Assembly: GCF_002079305.1 (NCBI RefSeq)
Contig: NZ_CP015039.1
Span: 2,067,501-2,131,500 of the forward strand
DNA from: Rhodovulum sp. P5
GTDB lineage: Bacteria; Pseudomonadota; Alphaproteobacteria; Rhodobacterales; Rhodobacteraceae
DNA: 64,000 bases
Direction: 5' to 3'
Part shown: positions 5,135 to 40,868 of the stretch, in pieces
Layout: every line of letters starts with the position of its first letter
Position numbering within the stretch: position 1 is the first letter of the stretch
Position numbers and translations under genes: made by a program
Notes under the pieces: model-generated
What the model saw: only the letters and a program-made list of their open reading frames with translations
Databases searched by the model: none
What the model was told of the DNA's origin: nothing

Positions 5135-6730
5135 TCAGGCCGTGGCGGCCAGATCCTCATCTTCATCCCGAACATCGCAGGTTTCGGTTAAGAGAAGGGC
5201 AGAGGCATCGAGGATCTGGATGATTTTGTCGCCGCCATCGAGGTTTGCGACATTGCCCATCAGGGCGCGCTGTTCATCCGACAGATCCGGGGCTTTCTCG
5301 ATCGAGGCGCGCGACAGGCGCAGAACCTCGGTCACCGAGTCCACGATAAAGCCGGTCTCGACCCCGTCACGGCTGAGAACGATGATCCGCTGCCGGTCTT
5401 CCCGCTCTGCCTCGGGCAGGCCGAAGCGCGTGCGCATCGTCACCACCGGCAGAACCGCGCCGCGCAGGGTGATGATGCCGGCCACGTAATGCGGGGCCCG
5501 CGGCACGCTGCGCAGGTCGTTCGGGACGCGGATGATTTCGCGTACAGCGTCGATCTCGACACCATAGTCCTGCCCGTCCAGCTGGTAGACCACCAGTTGC
5601 GTCTCATCGCCGTCGCCGGCGGCCTGCGCCGTGGTTTCCGCCATGTCGGTCTGGTCCTCTGCTGTCTCTGTCGTCTCGCCTGCCTCATCCAGCGCGGCGC
5701 GGATCGCGGCATCCTGGAACAGGGTGCGCCCCGACAGCACGCCGATCAGGCGCTTGCCCCCCTCCAGCCGGCACATGGTGCCGATCCGGTCCTGGCCGGT
5801 CTGGGAAATCAGGCTGGACACGCCGACCTGATCCTCGCGGGAGGCGGTGATCACCTCGCGCACCTGGTCGACCACAAGGCCGACACGGGCATCGGGGTCG
5901 CCTTCGCGGTCCACATGCAGAACGAGGATGCGGTTCGATTCCGATATTTCGGAACTCGGCAGGCCGAAGAGACGCCGCAAACAGACGATGGGCAGCAGCC
6001 GTTCCCGCAAGTCGATCAGGCCAAGAACATGGCTTGCCGATTGCGGAACCTGAAAGATCGACTCCGGCGGGCGCACGATTTCATCGACCTCGGAAATCTC
6101 GAACGCGTATTCCTGCCCGTCGACCATCAGGTTGACCAACTGGACAAGGGAATCGTCTTCGCCGTCGGCATCCTGCGACGCGGTGGAACCCGCAAGGCCG
6201 GGCTTGGCGTCGGTCGTGCTTTCGGCAGCCACAACGCTGGCCAGCCGAACGGCCTGGCTGACATCGAGGATCTGGATCAGGCCCGCGCCTTCGGTGTCCT
6301 TCACCACACCGTCCAGCAGGGTGTCGATCCCCGTGGCGCCCAGCGAGGCGCTTTCCTCGGGGGTTTCGATCCGGTCGGCGGCAAAGCTCACCACATGGGA
6401 GACGCGATCGACGATAAGACCGACGGGCGTGCCGCAATCCACCACGATGGTGCGGCTTGCGTCATCAACGGGTCGGGGCGGCAGCCCGGTCATCCGGCGC
6501 AGATCCATCACGGGCAAGATCGCGCCCCGAAGATTGGCGAGCCCCTCGAACCCGGGCGGGGTCAGCGGCACGCGGATCGCATCGGGAACGCGAATGATCT
6601 CGCGCACCAGTTCCATCGGCAGGGCAAAGCAGTCCTCGCCCATGTAGAAGGTTACGAACTGCCGCGGTTCGGCGGCAGTCGCTTCGCTGTCGGAGACGGC
6701 GTCCCCGACGTCGGCGGTGTTTCTGGCCAT
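5135..6730 (-). CDS. triple-CheW-domain scaffold protein
   Basis: 531 residues containing three complete CheW folds in tandem: about residues 22-165, 194-343 and 376-520. Each has the CheW signature of an N-terminal strand pair (RQFVTFYMGEDCFALP; VNLMVDGQEYAFEI; LVVYQLDGQDYGVEI), an I/L-VPNxxRxVP-type loop, and a LRG(A)xLPV segment (NLRGAILPVMDL; DLRERLLPIVCL; TLRGAVLPVVTM). Acidic linkers join them. CheW couples receptors to CheA, and usual CheW proteins have one such domain. The ATG at 6730 was chosen because the longer reading has no homologous start region and this ATG begins 22 bases after the receptor gene. No kinase or receiver domain is attached. It probably replaces or supplements single CheW in the array. 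Confidence 0.9.
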   Translation of the reverse strand: MARNTADVGDAVSDSEATAAEPRQFVTFYMGEDCFALPMELVREIIRVPDAIRVPLTPPGFEGLANLRGAILPVMDLRRMTGLPPRPVDDASRTIVVDCGTPVGLIVDRVSHVVSFAADRIETPEESASLGATGIDTLLDGVVKDTEGAGLIQILDVSQAVRLASVVAAESTTDAKPGLAGSTASQDADGEDDSLVQLVNLMVDGQEYAFEISEVDEIVRPPESIFQVPQSASHVLGLIDLRERLLPIVCLRRLFGLPSSEISESNRILVLHVDREGDPDARVGLVVDQVREVITASREDQVGVSSLISQTGQDRIGTMCRLEGGKRLIGVLSGRTLFQDAAIRAALDEAGETTETAEDQTDMAETTAQAAGDGDETQLVVYQLDGQDYGVEIDAVREIIRVPNDLRSVPRAPHYVAGIITLRGAVLPVVTMRTRFGLPEAEREDRQRIIVLSRDGVETGFIVDSVTEVLRLSRASIEKAPDLSDEQRALMGNVANLDGGDKIIQILDASALLLTETCDVRDEDEDLAATA

Positions 6731-12652: not shown

Positions 12653-12707
12653 TGCTGGTATCCTTCCAGATATTCGCCCCTCGTTGGGGAGGGGTGTCCC
12701 ACCGCCG

Positions 12708-35274: not shown

Positions 35275-35742
35275 TTACCAGGAATTGTAGGCGAGGTACT
35301 TGCCCGACATCTCGATCTTCACCCGGTCGCCCTTGGGGTGTTCCACGCGGGTGACGTGCATGTCGAAATCGATGGCCGACATGATGCCGTCGCCGAATTT
35401 CTCATGGATCAGCGCCTTGATCGTGGGGCCGTAGACGCCGACGATTTCATACAGGCGATAGATGCAAGGATCGGTCGGCACGGTCTGTTCCCAGACCTTG
35501 GTCGGGCATTCCTCCAGCACCGGTGCGGCCTCGGCCGGCAGGCCCAGCAGTTTCACCAGCGCCTCGGCCTTTTCTTTCGGCATGGCATTCATGCCCATCG
35601 CGGCGGAATGCGTCCAGACCGGCGACATGCCGATCGCCTCGGCGATCCCTTCCCAAGTCAGGCCCTGCCGTTTCTTGACAGAGATGATCATGGCGGTGAG
35701 GTCTTCCTTGGTCAGGTCATCGGTGTGGGTGAGGTCTTTCAT
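35275..35742 (-). CDS. cynS: cyanate hydratase (cyanase)
   Basis: 155 residues, same length and numbering as the E. coli enzyme: catalytic Arg96, Glu99 and Ser122 align exactly (IYRLYEIVGVYG; DGIMSAIDF). N-terminal helix-turn-helix-like domain (about 15-75) and C-terminal catalytic domain ending KYLAYNSW. It converts cyanate plus bicarbonate to ammonia and CO2, giving usable nitrogen. It lies 27 bases after the PP2C-kinase gene on the same strand and near the nitrate/nitrite genes, which fits a nitrogen-scavenging role. Confidence 0.97.
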   Translation of the reverse strand: MKDLTHTDDLTKEDLTAMIISVKKRQGLTWEGIAEAIGMSPVWTHSAAMGMNAMPKEKAEALVKLLGLPAEAAPVLEECPTKVWEQTVPTDPCIYRLYEIVGVYGPTIKALIHEKFGDGIMSAIDFDMHVTRVEHPKGDRVKIEMSGKYLAYNSW

Positions 35743-35769: not shown

Positions 35770-37497
35770 TCATCCGCCGAGTTGCGCCAGCAACACGACG
35801 ACAATTAAGGCAAGGGTGGCAGAGACGCCCTGCCAGAAGCGAACCGGATGGCGTTCGACCAGCGGCACATGGCGCGCGGCCCGATAGGTGGGCGGTGGCC
35901 TGTGCAGATCGGACATGAACTCGGACAGCGCATCATAGCGGCGCAGCGGATCGGGATGGACGGCACGGGCCAGCGCGGCGTCGACCCAGTCGGGCACACC
36001 ATGGGTGTCGTCGCGGGCGGGCCGGTAGCGCAGGCGCCGCTGATCGTTTCGGTTGCGGACCTTGGCGACCTCGGCCCCATAGGGCAGCCGCCCGGTCAAC
36101 AGTTCATAGGCGATGACCCCAAGGGCATACTGGTCCGACCGCCAGCTGACCGCATCGCCCGACAGGTATTCCGGCGCGGTGTACTGGTACGTTCCCATCA
36201 TGTCGCCGGCGAGGCCAGGCACGGTCTCTTCCAGCCCCGCCACCCGGACAGAGCCGAAATCGATGATCTTCACGGTGCCGTCGCCGTCGATCATGACGTT
36301 TTCGGGCCGCAGATCCTGATGGATCATCTCGCGCCGGTGAAAGGCGCGCAGGCCCCAGGCGATCTGGTCGACGATGTCGCGCACCTGATCCAGCGTCGGG
36401 CGCGGCGTGTCGGTCATCCATTGGCGCAGGGTCCGCCCCTCGACGAACTCCGTCACCGAATATAGCGCCGAGCGCTTTTCGCACGGGGCAGAGCGCAGCA
36501 CGTGGAACGAGACGATGCGGCGCGCCACCCAGTCTTCCAGAGCGAAGCGGCGCAGGAAGTCCGGGTCCTCCTGCATGCCCGTCGCCGGGATCTTCAGCGC
36601 CACCCGCGTGCCGCCCGCGGTGACCGCCAGAAACACATGGCTGCGGGATGAGGCATGCAGGGGGCGCACAACCCGGAACCCGTCGATCCAGTCGCCGGCC
36701 CGCGGCAGGGGCGGCACGGGCAGGGTCGCGTGCCCGGCGTCGAGATCGCCATCCTGCATGGCGGGCAGCGCATGGATGCGCAGGATCTGAACGGTCAGGT
36801 TGTCGGCGCTGCCCGCATCGAGCGCAAGATCGGCAAGCGCGCGGGCCGCCGCGGTCAGGTCCGGCGCCGCCGCGATTTCGCGGGCCACGGCGCGGCCAGT
36901 CACATGATCATGCACGCCGTCGGTGGTCAGAACGAATACGTCACCGACAGACAGCGGCACGCAGCGATAGTCGATTTCGATCTGCGGGGCCGCCCCAAGG
37001 GCACGACCAAGATAGGTTTCCGTGTCCGAAATACGGACCTTGTGGTCGTCGGTCAGGGGCTCAAGGCTGTCACCGGACAGGCGCGCAATCCGGCTGTCGC
37101 CGATATGGAACAGATGTGCCTCCCGCCCTTTCAGGATCAGGGCTGAAAGCGTGCAGACATGGCCGCGATTGGCATCGCCGATCGTGCCGTTCCGCGCATG
37201 CAGCCACGCATTCGTCGCCGCGATCACGCGGGAGGCCGCGGTCTTGACCGTCCATGTCTCCGGCGTGCTGTAGTAATCGGCCATGAGGCTTGAGATCGCG
37301 GTCTCGGACGCCTCGCGCGAGACGGGGCTGGAACTGATGCCGTCCGCCACGGCCAGCGTCAGGCCCTTGAACACCCGTTCGGGCCCCTCTGGCAGGCAGG
37401 CCCCGAAGAAATCCTGGTTCTGCGGCTTCCGCCCGGCCGCGGAATACTGGCCGATCGACACGGCAAGACCGGTCTGGTCGCAGGCATCCTTGGGCAT
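35770..37497 (-). CDS. PP2C phosphatase / Ser-Thr protein kinase fusion, membrane-anchored
   Basis: 575 residues. Residues about 10-242: PP2C phosphatase with its metal motifs (ADGISSS at 51-57, HIGDSRIARL, TTDGVHD at 191-197, ADNLTV at 231-236). Residues about 270-530: Hanks-type kinase with Lys302 (VALKIPA), HQDLRPEN (Asp395; Gln replaces the usual Arg of HRD), Asp413 in IIDFGS, and APE 441-443; the glycine-rich loop (PLHASSRSHVFLA) is degenerate. One C-terminal transmembrane helix (about 554-573). Fused phosphatase-kinases of this type are known beside nitrite transporters and assimilatory nitrate genes. Gln in HRD and the weak P-loop leave kinase activity open; targets are unknown. A terminator separates it from the channel gene. 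Confidence 0.9.
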   Translation of the reverse strand: MPKDACDQTGLAVSIGQYSAAGRKPQNQDFFGACLPEGPERVFKGLTLAVADGISSSPVSREASETAISSLMADYYSTPETWTVKTAASRVIAATNAWLHARNGTIGDANRGHVCTLSALILKGREAHLFHIGDSRIARLSGDSLEPLTDDHKVRISDTETYLGRALGAAPQIEIDYRCVPLSVGDVFVLTTDGVHDHVTGRAVAREIAAAPDLTAAARALADLALDAGSADNLTVQILRIHALPAMQDGDLDAGHATLPVPPLPRAGDWIDGFRVVRPLHASSRSHVFLAVTAGGTRVALKIPATGMQEDPDFLRRFALEDWVARRIVSFHVLRSAPCEKRSALYSVTEFVEGRTLRQWMTDTPRPTLDQVRDIVDQIAWGLRAFHRREMIHQDLRPENVMIDGDGTVKIIDFGSVRVAGLEETVPGLAGDMMGTYQYTAPEYLSGDAVSWRSDQYALGVIAYELLTGRLPYGAEVAKVRNRNDQRRLRYRPARDDTHGVPDWVDAALARAVHPDPLRRYDALSEFMSDLHRPPPTYRAARHVPLVERHPVRFWQGVSATLALIVVVLLAQLGG

Positions 37498-37553: not shown

Positions 37554-38405
37554 TTATTCGGCCGGCATGGTGGACACGTCACTGTTGTGGGTCACGGCCG
37601 CCTTGCGCGAGGGCGAGGTCTTGTAGTGGGTCGAGTAGATCATCGCGCCCACGAAGGTCAGACCGCCCACGAGGTTGCCCAGAACCGTCGGGATCTCGTT
37701 CCAGAACAGGTAGTCGGTGATCGTGAAGTTACCGCCCAGCAGAAGGCCCGAGGGGAACAGGAACATGTTCACGATGGAATGTTCGAAGCCGAGGTAGAAG
37801 AAAACGAGGATCGGCATCCACATCGCGATGACCTTGCCCGACACGCTGGTCGACATCATCGCGGCGACCACGCCGGTGGACACCATCCAGTTGCACATCA
37901 CCGCCCGGACAAAGAGTGTCAGCATGCCCGACGCCCCGGCCTCGGCATAGCCGACGGTGCGGGCCTCTCCGATCACGCCGATCTTCTGGCCGACGGCGTT
38001 CGGTTCATGGCTGAACCCGGTGGTGAAGATGATCGCCATGAAGATCGCGACGGTGAAGGCCCCGGCAAAGTTGCCGACGAAGACAAGGCCCCAGTTGCGC
38101 AGCACGCCCTTGACCGTGACACCCGGCCGCTTGTCGAGCAGGGCAAGCGGCACCAGCGTGAACACGCCCGTCAGCAGGTCGAAGCCCAGCAGGTAGAGTG
38201 TGCAGAACCCGACCGGGAACAGCAGCGCGCCGATCAGGAATTGCCCGGTGTTCACGGCCACCGTCACGGCAAAGGCCGCCGCCAGCGCGAGAATGGCACC
38301 GGCCATATAGGCGCGGATCAGCGTGTCCTTGGTCGACATGAAGACCTTGGCTTCACCGGCATCGACCATCTTCGATGCAAATTCGGGTGGATTGATGTAG
38401 GACAT
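37554..38405 (-). CDS. formate/nitrite transporter family channel (NirC/FocA type)
   Basis: 283 residues, six transmembrane helices. Start ATG 38405 with AGAGGA upstream; the longer frame to 38573 runs through the RNA leader described below. Family motifs: AGAILALAAAFAV near helix 1, VGNFAGA in helix 3 (the FNT omega-loop region), VCNWMV-type segment as MCNWMVSTGV, and GFEHSIVNMF with the central pore His. It moves nitrite or formate across the inner membrane. Neighbouring nitrite reductase and nasT genes support nitrite. Preceded by a two-hairpin ANTAR-type leader. Confidence 0.93.
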   Translation of the reverse strand: MSYINPPEFASKMVDAGEAKVFMSTKDTLIRAYMAGAILALAAAFAVTVAVNTGQFLIGALLFPVGFCTLYLLGFDLLTGVFTLVPLALLDKRPGVTVKGVLRNWGLVFVGNFAGAFTVAIFMAIIFTTGFSHEPNAVGQKIGVIGEARTVGYAEAGASGMLTLFVRAVMCNWMVSTGVVAAMMSTSVSGKVIAMWMPILVFFYLGFEHSIVNMFLFPSGLLLGGNFTITDYLFWNEIPTVLGNLVGGLTFVGAMIYSTHYKTSPSRKAAVTHNSDVSTMPAE

Positions 38406-38892
38406 GTTCGGTTCCTCTGTCTGTTCGGGCCTGCGTTTCGGAGGCCGATCAAAGGGCGCAGTCGCGGCGCCGTTTTGGGAGAGGCAGGTCAGGGAACACG
38501 GCAAACATGACGCCGCGTCCTCGGACCGGCCCCGTGGGGCGGTTTCGAAGGAAGCAGCGCCGTTGCTGCACACCCAGAAAGGGTATCAGATCGGAAAGGG
38601 CCGCGCCGTTGCGGCTTGGGGCAGGTGTGACCACCGGCCATGTTTCGATTAGGCCCGCACCACGCACGCAAGCAAGCGAATCGAGACCGATTGCCGCAAG
38701 TTTCGGTCGAATCGAACACATCCTGATTGTTTCGCCGCATTCCTGCGCAGCATCTGGCAAGATTTGTGACCATTCGCCCATTTCGCGGGCGCAGCATGTC
38801 TGGAATGATTCGATGATGCCCCTGCACACGCGCGCCGCTTGCTGCGCCTTGCCGCGGCGCCTAGCCATGCGGGGGGACAGACGAGAGGCCAA
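38406..38892. other. divergent region between the FNT channel gene and nasT
   Basis: 487 bases with no convincing gene; the reading frames here are shadows. It contains the two ANTAR-type hairpins of the channel leader (separate entry) and should contain both divergent promoters. I could not fix either: no good sigma-70 pair, and TGGCAAGATTTGTG at about 38754 only partly resembles a sigma-54 site. Confidence 0.5.
38554..38615 (-). promoter_or_regulatory. candidate ANTAR (NasT) two-hairpin RNA target upstream of the FNT channel
   Basis: Read on the minus strand (transcript sense): hairpin P1, GCCGC-AACGGC-GCGGC (38615 to 38600), and hairpin P2, GCAGC-AACGGC-GCTGC (38569 to 38554). Both have perfect 5-bp stems and the same hexaloop, with A at loop position 1 and G at position 4, as required in known ANTAR targets. 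The linker is 30 bases and itself holds ACCC-TTTCT-GGGT. The leader then runs about 148 bases to the channel ATG. I found no U-tract terminator overlapping P2, so the mode of control may differ from the nrtA leader. Confidence 0.65.
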
Positions 38893-39477
38893 ATGCCCGA
38901 CATGATTTCCATCGTCGTGGTCGAAAGCGACCGAGACCGCGCGCTTCTGATCGTGGACAGCCTGCGGGAAGCCGGCGATTTCGACGTCTTCGTCGTCTCC
39001 GAGATGACCGGACTTGCGCGCCAGATTTCAGAGCGGAACCCGGACGTGGTTCTGGTGGACGTCACCAGCCCCTCTCGCGATATCCTGGAAGAACTGGCGC
39101 TGGCCTCGGGCCCGCTGGACCGACCGGTGGCGATGTTCGTCGACCGGTCGGACGACAGCCTGACCAAGGCCGCGATCGAGGCGGGCGTATCCGCCTATGT
39201 GGTCGACGGGCTGCGCGCCGACCGGATCAAGCCGATCATGGATGCCGCCATCGCCCGCTTTCACATGTTCGCGCGGATGCGCGCAGAGTTGGAGGCGACA
39301 CGCCGGGCGCTGGAGGAACGCAAGGTCATCGACCGCGCCAAGGGCATGCTGATGAAGGCCAAGGGGCTGGACGAAGACGCGGCCTATGCGCTGTTGCGCA
39401 AGACGGCGATGGACCAGGGGCGCAAGGTCGTCGATGTCGCACAGGCGCTGGTCACGGCTGCGGGGCTGTTGTCGTGA
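38893..39477 (+). CDS. nasT: NasT, ANTAR-domain transcription antiterminator
   Basis: 194 residues; ATG 38893 with GAGAGG upstream. N-terminal receiver-like domain (acidic Glu11/Asp13, Asp56 in VLVDVTSP, Lys in the KPIMDAA region) and C-terminal ANTAR RNA-binding domain (about 128-190: LEERKVIDRAKGMLMKAKGL, then DEDAAYALLRKTAM), given here as two segments. In known NasS/NasT systems NasT binds hexaloop hairpins in the leader of nitrate assimilation mRNAs and prevents termination, and is held inactive by NasS without nitrate/nitrite. It overlaps nasS by GTGA. Confidence 0.93.
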   Translation: MPDMISIVVVESDRDRALLIVDSLREAGDFDVFVVSEMTGLARQISERNPDVVLVDVTSPSRDILEELALASGPLDRPVAMFVDRSDDSLTKAAIEAGVSAYVVDGLRADRIKPIMDAAIARFHMFARMRAELEATRRALEERKVIDRAKGMLMKAKGLDEDAAYALLRKTAMDQGRKVVDVAQALVTAAGLLS

Positions 39478-40643
39478 GCATGGTGGACTTGCAGGTCGGG
39501 TTCATCCCGCTGGTCGATGCCGCCCCCCTGATCGTGGCGCGCGAAATCGGCTTTGACGAGGAAGTCGGGCTGCGGCTTTCCCTGCGCTCGGCCCCAAGCT
39601 GGGCAACCTTGCGCGACATGCTGGTGATGGGTCAGGTCGAGGCCGCGCATCTTCTGGCGCCGATCCCCGTGGCGATGGCGCTGGGTCTTGGGGGCATGGC
39701 GACGCGGCTGGACGTGCTGTCGGTGCTGTCGGTCAATGGCAATGTGATCGGCGTATCGACGCCCTTGGCGGACCGCATGCGCGCCGCCGGCTTCGGTTTC
39801 GATTTCACGGATGCGCGGGCGGCCGGGCAGGCGCTGATCGCCGCCTGTGATACCCGCCCCCGGATCGGCGTGCCCTTCCCGTTCTCGATGCATGCGGAAC
39901 TGCTGTATCACTGGCTGGGCGTCCGGGCCCCGCAGGATCTGGATGTCAGAACCGTCCCGCCCCCCCTGATGGCCGATGCGATGGCCGCGGGAGAGATCGA
40001 TGCCTTCTGCGTGGGCGCGCCCTGGGGGTCCATCGCGGTGGAAACCTGTGTGGGGTCGCTGTTGCTGCCGGGCACCGCGATCTGGGCCTTTGCCCCGGAA
40101 AAGGTGCTGGCCGTCCGGCATGACTGGGCAGAGAGCGAACCCGGCCTTGCGCGCCGCCTGATGCGGGCGGTCTGGCGGGCCGGGCGCTGGCTGGGACAGG
40201 CGGACAACCTGTCGACCGCGTCCGAAATTCTGGCGCGGTCGGAATATGTCAACGTGCCCGCCGAACTCATCGAACGGGCGCTGACCGGGCGGGTCACGAT
40301 CAGCCCGCGGGGCGAGCTTCGCCGGGTGCCCAATTTCCTTGTGTTCCATCATGGCGCGGCGAGTTTTCCGTGGAAGTCGCAGGCCGCGTGGATCGCCGCC
40401 CGGCTGGCAGAGCGGAACGGGCTTGACCGGGCGCAGGCCATGCAGACCGCGCGCGGGGTCTTCCGCACCGATCTCTACCGCCGGAATCTGGGCGATCTGG
40501 GCGCCGAATTGCCCGGTGCGTCGGAAAAGGTCGAAGGTTCGGTGCAGGTGCCGACGCCGGTTGCCTCCGAAACGGGACGGCTGATTCTTCAGCCTGATCG
40601 TTTCTTCGACGGGCATATTTTCGACCCAAGCGCGACAAACTGA
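39474..40643 (+). CDS. nasS: NasS, nitrate/nitrite sensor (cytoplasmic NrtA-like)
   Basis: 389 residues from GTG 39474 (or 387 from ATG 39480). It is homologous to the nitrate-binding protein NrtA encoded downstream (shared VGFIPLVDAAPLIVA / [15 protein letters not shown] starts, PFPFSMHAELLYHWLG, PPLMADAMAAGEIDAFCVGAPW) but has no signal peptide, which is the hallmark of NasS. Binds nitrate or nitrite in the cytoplasm and releases NasT. Followed by a small hairpin terminator, then the nrtA leader. Confidence 0.92.
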   Translation: MSMVDLQVGFIPLVDAAPLIVAREIGFDEEVGLRLSLRSAPSWATLRDMLVMGQVEAAHLLAPIPVAMALGLGGMATRLDVLSVLSVNGNVIGVSTPLADRMRAAGFGFDFTDARAAGQALIAACDTRPRIGVPFPFSMHAELLYHWLGVRAPQDLDVRTVPPPLMADAMAAGEIDAFCVGAPWGSIAVETCVGSLLLPGTAIWAFAPEKVLAVRHDWAESEPGLARRLMRAVWRAGRWLGQADNLSTASEILARSEYVNVPAELIERALTGRVTISPRGELRRVPNFLVFHHGAASFPWKSQAAWIAARLAERNGLDRAQAMQTARGVFRTDLYRRNLGDLGAELPGASEKVEGSVQVPTPVASETGRLILQPDRFFDGHIFDPSATN

Positions 40644-40748: not shown

Positions 40749-40824
40749 GTGTGGCGGGGCAAGGATGTCTCGTCACACGAAATTCACCCACGATGATGCG
40801 GGTATTCCTGAGCAAAGCCGCTCG
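40749..40824 (+). promoter_or_regulatory. candidate NasT-binding two-hairpin antiterminator in the nrtA leader
   Basis: P1: arm 40749-40760 pairs with 40767-40778 over 12 contiguous pairs (some G-U), hexaloop AAGGAT (40761-40766). P2: GAGC (40810-40813) pairs with GCTC (40820-40823), hexaloop AAAGCC (40814-40819), closed by a U-G pair. Both loops have A at position 1 and G at position 4, the conserved ANTAR-target bases. P2 uses bases 40816-40823 of the terminator's 5' arm, so P2 and the terminator cannot form together. The linker (40779-40809) holds an ACCC/GGGT mini-hairpin like the one upstream of the FNT gene. Confidence 0.75.
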
Positions 40825-40868
40825 ACCCTTCGCATGAATGCGAGGCTGGTCGGCGGCTTTTTTGTTTT
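40816..40868 (+). terminator. leader terminator upstream of nrtA
   Basis: 5' arm 40816-40827 (AGCCGC, bulged T, CGACC) pairs with 40848-40858 (GGTCGGCGGCT); an inner stem (40828-40834 with 40839-40845) extends it. It is followed by TTTTTTGTTTT (40858-40868). A very strong intrinsic terminator placed 43 bases before nrtA, so the operon needs antitermination to be expressed. Confidence 0.85.

Follow-up and report, generated by a model that had tools for sequence, protein, structure and literature searches.

The window, as we call the whole 64-kb stretch of DNA that was analysed, holds an FNT channel gene (formate/nitrite family) and, divergent from it, nasT followed by nasS. The 487-nt intergenic region shared with nasT carries two hairpins, P1 and P2, upstream of the FNT start codon (ATG, 38405) and in the sense of FNT. 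The genes and leader features are as follows.

35275..35742, minus strand: cynS, cyanate lyase, the last gene of the FNT run
35770..37497, minus strand: fused PP2C phosphatase/Ser-Thr kinase gene, next in the FNT operon
37554..38405, minus strand: FNT channel gene (Pfam PF01226); similarity and gene order mark it as the ortholog of Paracoccus nasH
38406..38553, minus strand: remaining leader, C-rich, G-poor and without a U-tract terminator; candidate Rho-loading stretch
38412-38418, minus strand: ribosome-binding site AGAGGAA, within the FNT leader
38511..38559, minus strand: predicted alternative hairpin with the P2 3' arm
38554..38569, minus strand: P2 hairpin, GCAGC-AACGGC-GCTGC, five Watson-Crick pairs, hexaloop A1/G4
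38570..38586, minus strand: PL, a third hairpin, in the linker, six pairs, directly abutting P2 (fold and shuffle test)
38600..38615, minus strand: P1 hairpin, GCCGC-AACGGC-GCGGC, five Watson-Crick pairs, hexaloop A1/G4
38620..38639, minus strand: P0, a hairpin immediately 5' of P1 (shuffle test over 20 leaders; p 0.056 in the window)
38893..39477, plus strand: nasT, receiver-like plus ANTAR protein, the likely reader of the element
39474..40643, plus strand: nasS, NMT1-like
40756..40863, plus strand: first element, in the nrtA leader downstream of nasS (P1 40756-40771, P2 40809-40824)
45513-47981: nirB, now within the nrt operon of the window

We take NasS, by homology, to be the nitrate/nitrite sensor partner of NasT. 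A sensor role of NasS is described in the abstract of PMC3795266. Elsewhere in the genome a second ANTAR domain (C1:3044473-3044604, minus strand) was barely significant, at 27.6 bits with a cut-off of 27.3. A PP2C/Ser-Thr kinase fusion gene was found beside FNT in 47 of 80 loci, and its product might modify the FNT channel or another nitrogen protein.

P1 and P2 had been described in the earlier note as perfect 5-bp stems with identical AACGGC loops, spaced by 30 nt in the sense of FNT, and this was confirmed in the sequence: on the minus strand P1 (38615-38600) is followed by a 30-nt linker and then by P2 (38569-38554). An ANTAR target RNA has two hexaloop stem-loops with 3 or more pairs each; both loops keep A as their first base and G as their fourth (A1/G4), the linker is short, and the genome carries an ANTAR gene. 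Here each stem has 5 pairs, both loops carry A1 and G4 and nasT is the ANTAR gene; the linker is not short, though 17 of its 30 nt form a hairpin. ANTAR proteins are known chiefly as antiterminators at U-tract terminators, and the classic ANTAR antitermination leader has an intrinsic terminator overlapping P2. A scan of 38380-38920 found no U-tract terminator, as the earlier note had said. The nrtA leader, which holds the first element, does have P1, P2 and an overlapping terminator (40816-40858) with a T run.

The pair before FNT was the only 5-pair A1/G4 hexaloop pair on either strand of the 64-kb window; 40 shuffles of the 64 kb contained 0.15 pairs on average and 2 at most. When the intergenic region was shuffled, any pair arose in 7 of 20,000 sequences and identical loops in 0 of 20,000. 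Single-strand folding of a 68-nt piece returned P1, P2 and the third hairpin within the linker; the shuffle z-score of this piece was a modest -1.63, and 12 of 200 shuffles folded equally well. In the predicted fold of the longer leader P1 had a probability of 0.91 and P2 of 0.04, P2 being mostly displaced. A gathering search of Rfam returned no family at the FNT leader element, and a promoter scan of the FNT leader gave 0 promoter-like sites and identified no transcript start. Elsewhere in the window, a serC leader (RF00517) lies at 12653-12704 on the minus strand (73.9 bits).

We used two covariance models to search for relatives of the element. R1 was built from nine FNT leaders, with the window among the seeds, and R2 from nine leaders at nirB starts, with the window excluded (one of the nine, L045, has a nirB remnant). 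Because the sites that trained R2 had been picked up by R1, tests with the two models are not fully independent; the E-values of both are rough. In the window's own genome (4.47 Mb) the FNT leader element was the sole clear match of R2, at 58.3 bits and E 2.9e-10; the next best had E 0.38. The hairpins are conserved among relatives, a point on which the earlier note had let its proposal stand or fall. P1 pairs were changed on both sides at 4 of 5 positions in the FNT set and at 3 in the nirB set, and P2 pairs were likewise altered on both sides among relatives. A1 and G4 of the loops were invariant in 9 of 9 rows of A2 (window included), where sites were chosen by the A1/G4 rule, and in 9 of 9 rows of A3, where sites were chosen by a model built from A2.

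R1 was searched against 394 genomes of the family with stricter filters; by size and handles this appears to be the same draw as that of the FNT census. It gave 15 matches at E<1e-5, all within the 29 FNT-bearing genomes and none in the 365 others, FNT-bearing being defined by an FNT match at E<=1e-100, a threshold that places G263, with its broken and weaker match, among the FNT-negative genomes. With the 9 training genomes removed, matches were found in 6 of 20 FNT-bearing genomes vs 0 of 365 others (p 9e-9). All six matches outside the training set lie directly before nirB. Five of these belong to nirB-FNT operons with nirB as the first gene. In the remaining one (G039) the PP2C gene comes after nirB, and FNT lies apart with a separate element in front of it. 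Another 19 rows had an E-value from 1e-5 to 0.05, about as many as chance would give in 394 genomes, and were left uncounted, yet one of them, G371, counts as a weak positive in the comparison of gene contexts below.

R1 was also run over 79 of the 80 FNT loci, L017 being left out as it comes without upstream sequence. L030 and L112 are the same leader and were counted once, as were L067 and L094. Among 385 genomes of the class, R2 gave matches at E<=0.001 in four: the window's own, L226, L227 and L228. L226 and L227 are FNT leaders in other families, and in L226 nasS-nasT diverges from element-FNT-PP2C in the arrangement of the window. L228 (E 6.6e-4) has none of the panel genes adjacent and was treated as a false match. 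Weak model matches were seen before cynS (L014:3680-3741, 27.4 bits) and before a nasC-like gene in three Sinorhizobium/Ensifer loci (L056, L060 and L074, near 5770-5839, 18-20 bits); these may be further NasT targets.

Next to the model searches stands a comparison of gene contexts in the same 394 family genomes, 29 of which have an FNT ortholog. Upstream regions of the FNT orthologs were scanned for the P1/P2 geometry, and a P1/P2-type pair was found to precede FNT where FNT does not lie behind nirB. The earlier note had pointed to other Rhodobacteraceae as the place to look for the pair; an ANTAR gene together with a nirB/FNT unit not directly behind nrt genes occurs in 19 of the 29 genomes, and 17 of these 19 have the pair before FNT or nirB. 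It precedes FNT in ten (G000, G293, G130, G346, G231, G322, G039, G188, G203, G226) and nirB in seven (G016, G092, G254, G189, G262, G042, G371), while G127 and G360, which have an ANTAR gene and a split FNT, showed a P2-like hairpin but no full pair. The element was missing from all seven genomes in which nirB-FNT directly follows nrt (G067, G063, G048, G258, G276, G143, G326); there nasT-nasS-nrt-nirB-FNT form one run, with nirB at most ~1 kb after the nrt match. It was also missing from all three genomes without an ANTAR match (G061, G003, G187). Such a match is present in 26 of the 29 FNT-bearing genomes, and one of the three lacking it is 91% complete.

Taken together, the element occurs in 17 of 19 vs 0 of 10 genomes (p 3e-6), the split and not-split classes having been drawn after the data were seen and the Fisher tests, like all combined p values below, treating related genomes as independent. 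Three positives are weak: G371 scored 24.9 bits and shows a P1 mismatch by eye, G042 scored 35.9 bits and came up in the local search alone, and the element before FNT in G039 scored 24.2 bits. G254 is borderline, as its element-bearing nirB-FNT comes after nasT-nasS-nrt, nasC and cysG on one and the same strand. With this genome reclassified, the counts become 16 of 18 vs 1 of 11 (p 3e-5); leaving out G371 as well gave p 3e-4. The element was on the strand of the downstream gene in 22 of 22 loci; the first hairpin scans were sense-only and the model searches covered both strands. FNT-first positives came from the sense-strand hairpin scan, which required pairing, so their pairing percentages and strand are biased by design.

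Of the 17 carriers, 13 have the nasT/ANTAR match on a different contig from the element; the distance is 370 kb in G203 and ~10 kb in G254, and nasT is divergent beside the element in only two, G000 and G016. With nasT distant in most carriers, the element would act in trans, and the divergence from nasT to which the earlier note had tied the control is incidental. A divergent nasT-element layout was also found in one genome of another family (G513). In three betaproteobacterial loci (L006, L047, L061) FNT is behind nasT on the same strand with, by eye, a U-tract terminator in between. FNT proteins 75-80% identical to that of the window were found in Actinobacteria (L020, L035, L039, L041, L070, L081, L082), a similarity that suggests gene transfer.

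The leader contains more structure than P1 and P2. In a shuffle test over 20 leaders the P0 region (36 nt before P1) folded better than its shuffles (combined p 1e-7; 7 of 20 individually <0.05), and so did the linker with PL (combined p 9e-6; again 7 of 20 <0.05); 38 control segments farther upstream showed no excess folding (p 0.54). The P0 and linker folds are often conserved in shape while their sequences vary, and the linker hairpin was not formed in L196 and L199. As the linker columns sit in R1 as plain sequence, the linker hairpin is not fully independent evidence for sites found with R1; P0 is outside the model. RNAalifold on the 20 extended leaders recovered P1 and P2 and nothing else. 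The stretch after P2 as a whole beat its shuffles in 7 of 19 leaders (combined p 6e-5), and there may be further structure downstream of P2. A long-range helix between the P1 3' arm and downstream sequence was tried and rejected (5 of 19 leaders at p<0.05, combined p 0.0017, p 0.50 in the window).

The observed anatomy, conservation, gene context and co-occurrence with ANTAR genes point to a NasT target RNA. The claim of the earlier note that an ANTAR-type element lies in the FNT transcript is backed by the comparison with relatives and by the ANTAR gene co-occurrence. Very probably, the element serves as a NasT-binding ANTAR target RNA within the 5' leader of the FNT-(PP2C/kinase)-cynS operon; it apparently derives from a nirBD-FNT leader. 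We infer NasT binding and a positive sign of control, and propose the following course. Nitrate or nitrite would release NasT from NasS, and the freed NasT would bind the P1 and P2 hexaloops of the nascent leader, the linker hairpin bringing the two loops close together. Binding would permit expression of the FNT operon alongside the nrt/nir genes, whose leader is the classic version. The bacterium thus probably turns on its nitrite channel along with the genes for nitrate uptake.

The output step is the least certain part. Our best guess, tentatively held, is that NasT relieves termination by Rho within the C-rich leader; second come a weakly acting intrinsic terminator or an effect on RNA stability, and translation last. 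C exceeds G in the stretch after P2 in 21 of 21 leaders vs 11 of 21 upstream segments. The Rho signal is nevertheless weak, because C also exceeds G in 17 of 17 nrtA leaders, 12 of 17 nasT leaders and 92 of 141 unrelated ones. In a simple scan of 17 nrtA leader regions from the same genomes, 11 showed the A1/G4 pair, 10 had a U-tract terminator and 4 had neither of the two; the linker was 30-39 nt in 9 of the 11 regions of the family with a listed pair.

An intrinsic terminator would be a sub-case of the NasT reading, differing in the output step: the P2 3' arm pairs downstream (38559-38511) ahead of a poor U tract, and NasT prevents this. P2 is indeed predicted to be mostly displaced in the window, where the alternative pairing beats shuffles (p 0.003), and Cupriavidus L011 has the classic form: 30 nt ahead of FNT, its pair is overlapped by a U-tract terminator. 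However, the U-rich stretch after the alternative hairpin (38503-38510) has only 5 T in 8 and the scan lists no terminator-like site. The pairing, strongest in the window, reached p<0.05 in only 3 of 19 leaders (combined p 0.034), and among the FNT upstream regions of L004-L115 an overlapping terminator was found in L011 and nowhere else. We consider this output unlikely. A second sub-case, in which NasT binding alters access to the ribosome-binding site, appears less likely still. Predicted access in the window rose from 0.18 to 0.39 with P1 and P2 imposed, and ANTAR RNAs over ribosome sites are reported in Actinobacteria (PMC8164766). In L079 (98-245) the fold pairs the P2 3' arm with the nirB start region, a possible translational version, the start codon used in this computation being probably slightly upstream of the true one. 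Across 18 leaders, however, access showed no consistent change, on which ground general masking of the ribosome site was rejected, and in 17 of the 18 the distance between P2 and the start codon is 99-386 nt.

Could the inverted repeats be DNA operators, for NtrC or another regulator, common to the divergent nasT and FNT promoters? Their location between divergent genes and the dyad symmetry of both repeats would suit this, but the stems vary on both sides around a constant loop A1/G4, the strand is that of the gene in all 22 loci, and in 15 of 17 carriers nasT is not a neighbour of the element. Allowing <=1 mismatch, the published NtrC consensus of Paracoccus had 0 matches here, and the 4 it had in the window are no more than chance would give. 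The operator reading was rejected as highly improbable on the covariation of the stems, the constant strand and the distance of nasT. Chance hairpins without function, for which speak only the short stems favoured by GC-rich DNA and the modest z-score, are practically negligible given the shuffle odds and the conservation of the element.

In a Rhodobacteraceae MAG (L045) a nirB leader precedes 27 residues still recognisable as nirB, an unrecognisable stretch, 81 residues matching the end of nirD, and then FNT. This looks like an operon losing nirB, with FNT retaining the leader. Since nirB of the window is now in the nrt operon, its FNT unit fits a history of the L045 type. From such neighbours rather than from a tree, we infer that the window element is apparently the retained leader of a former nirBD-FNT operon: nirBD would have been lost or moved into the nrt operon, and the inherited leader left before FNT. 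This suggests operon break-up with a regulatory RNA staying on the remaining genes, which keeps nitrite uptake coupled to nitrate sensing.

NasT control of a nitrite channel is already known from Paracoccus nasH, and the window element is a variant form. The earlier note had presented nitrite transport as a new extension of the regulon; passages of PMC5424462 place nasH of Paracoccus denitrificans in the NasT-dependent nasABGHC operon, where hairpin I of the leader is needed for nitrate induction. Nor is this kind of target undescribed, as that note had supposed: ANTAR RNAs upstream of 'nitrate and nitrite transporters' are mentioned in the text of Ramesh et al. 2012 (PMC3369931), where many predicted ANTAR RNAs are without a terminator. 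A literature search for 'ANTAR' with 'formate nitrite transporter' returned no papers; an FNT case may stand in the supplementary tables of PMC3369931, outside that search. The Rhodobacteraceae leaders and those of other alphaproteobacterial families could form a separate ANTAR leader class of the order P0-P1-linker hairpin-P2, where NasT would either block Rho or work in some other way independent of an intrinsic terminator, and where a hairpin in the linker would take the place of the short linker needed in other ANTAR RNAs, a proposal we hold a little more loosely than that of Rho relief itself. As conserved, experimentally tractable NasT leaders without U-tract terminators, they would make the mode of action of terminator-less ANTAR targets testable.

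The ANTAR targets eutP, nasF and amiE share with the window two hexaloop hairpins with A1 and G4, a place in the leader of a nitrogen gene and an ANTAR gene in the genome. The window differs in its 30-nt linker with a third hairpin, in the extra hairpin before P1 and in having no overlapping intrinsic terminator. The linker speaks against a NasT target RNA to some extent, being longer than the 5-12 nt of eut RNAs, in which lengthening abolished activity according to passages of PMC3369931 and PMC8934654. ANTAR RNAs of Actinobacteria, in the sections of PMC8164766 drawn on here, resemble the window in mostly lacking a terminator (few lie upstream of one); there linkers were limited to 2-25 nt, compared with 30 nt in the window, and ~37% of the RNAs are at or near a ribosome site. 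The nas leader of Paracoccus denitrificans shares with the window the regulator type and the channel gene (its ortholog nasH is 82% identical, L013), and it has two described hairpins (PMC5424462). There the channel is inside the nas operon behind the nasA leader, whereas FNT in the window heads its own operon with its own element, without a U-tract terminator. In Bradyrhizobium diazoefficiens, NasT hairpins are described in the leaders of nosR, nirA, coxS, narK and bjgb (PMC6759348), in whose main text 'FNT' and 'nitrite transporter' occur 0 times and no FNT target was found. As in the window, several separate operons there, including that of the assimilatory nitrite reductase, are NasT targets or candidates according to the same main text.
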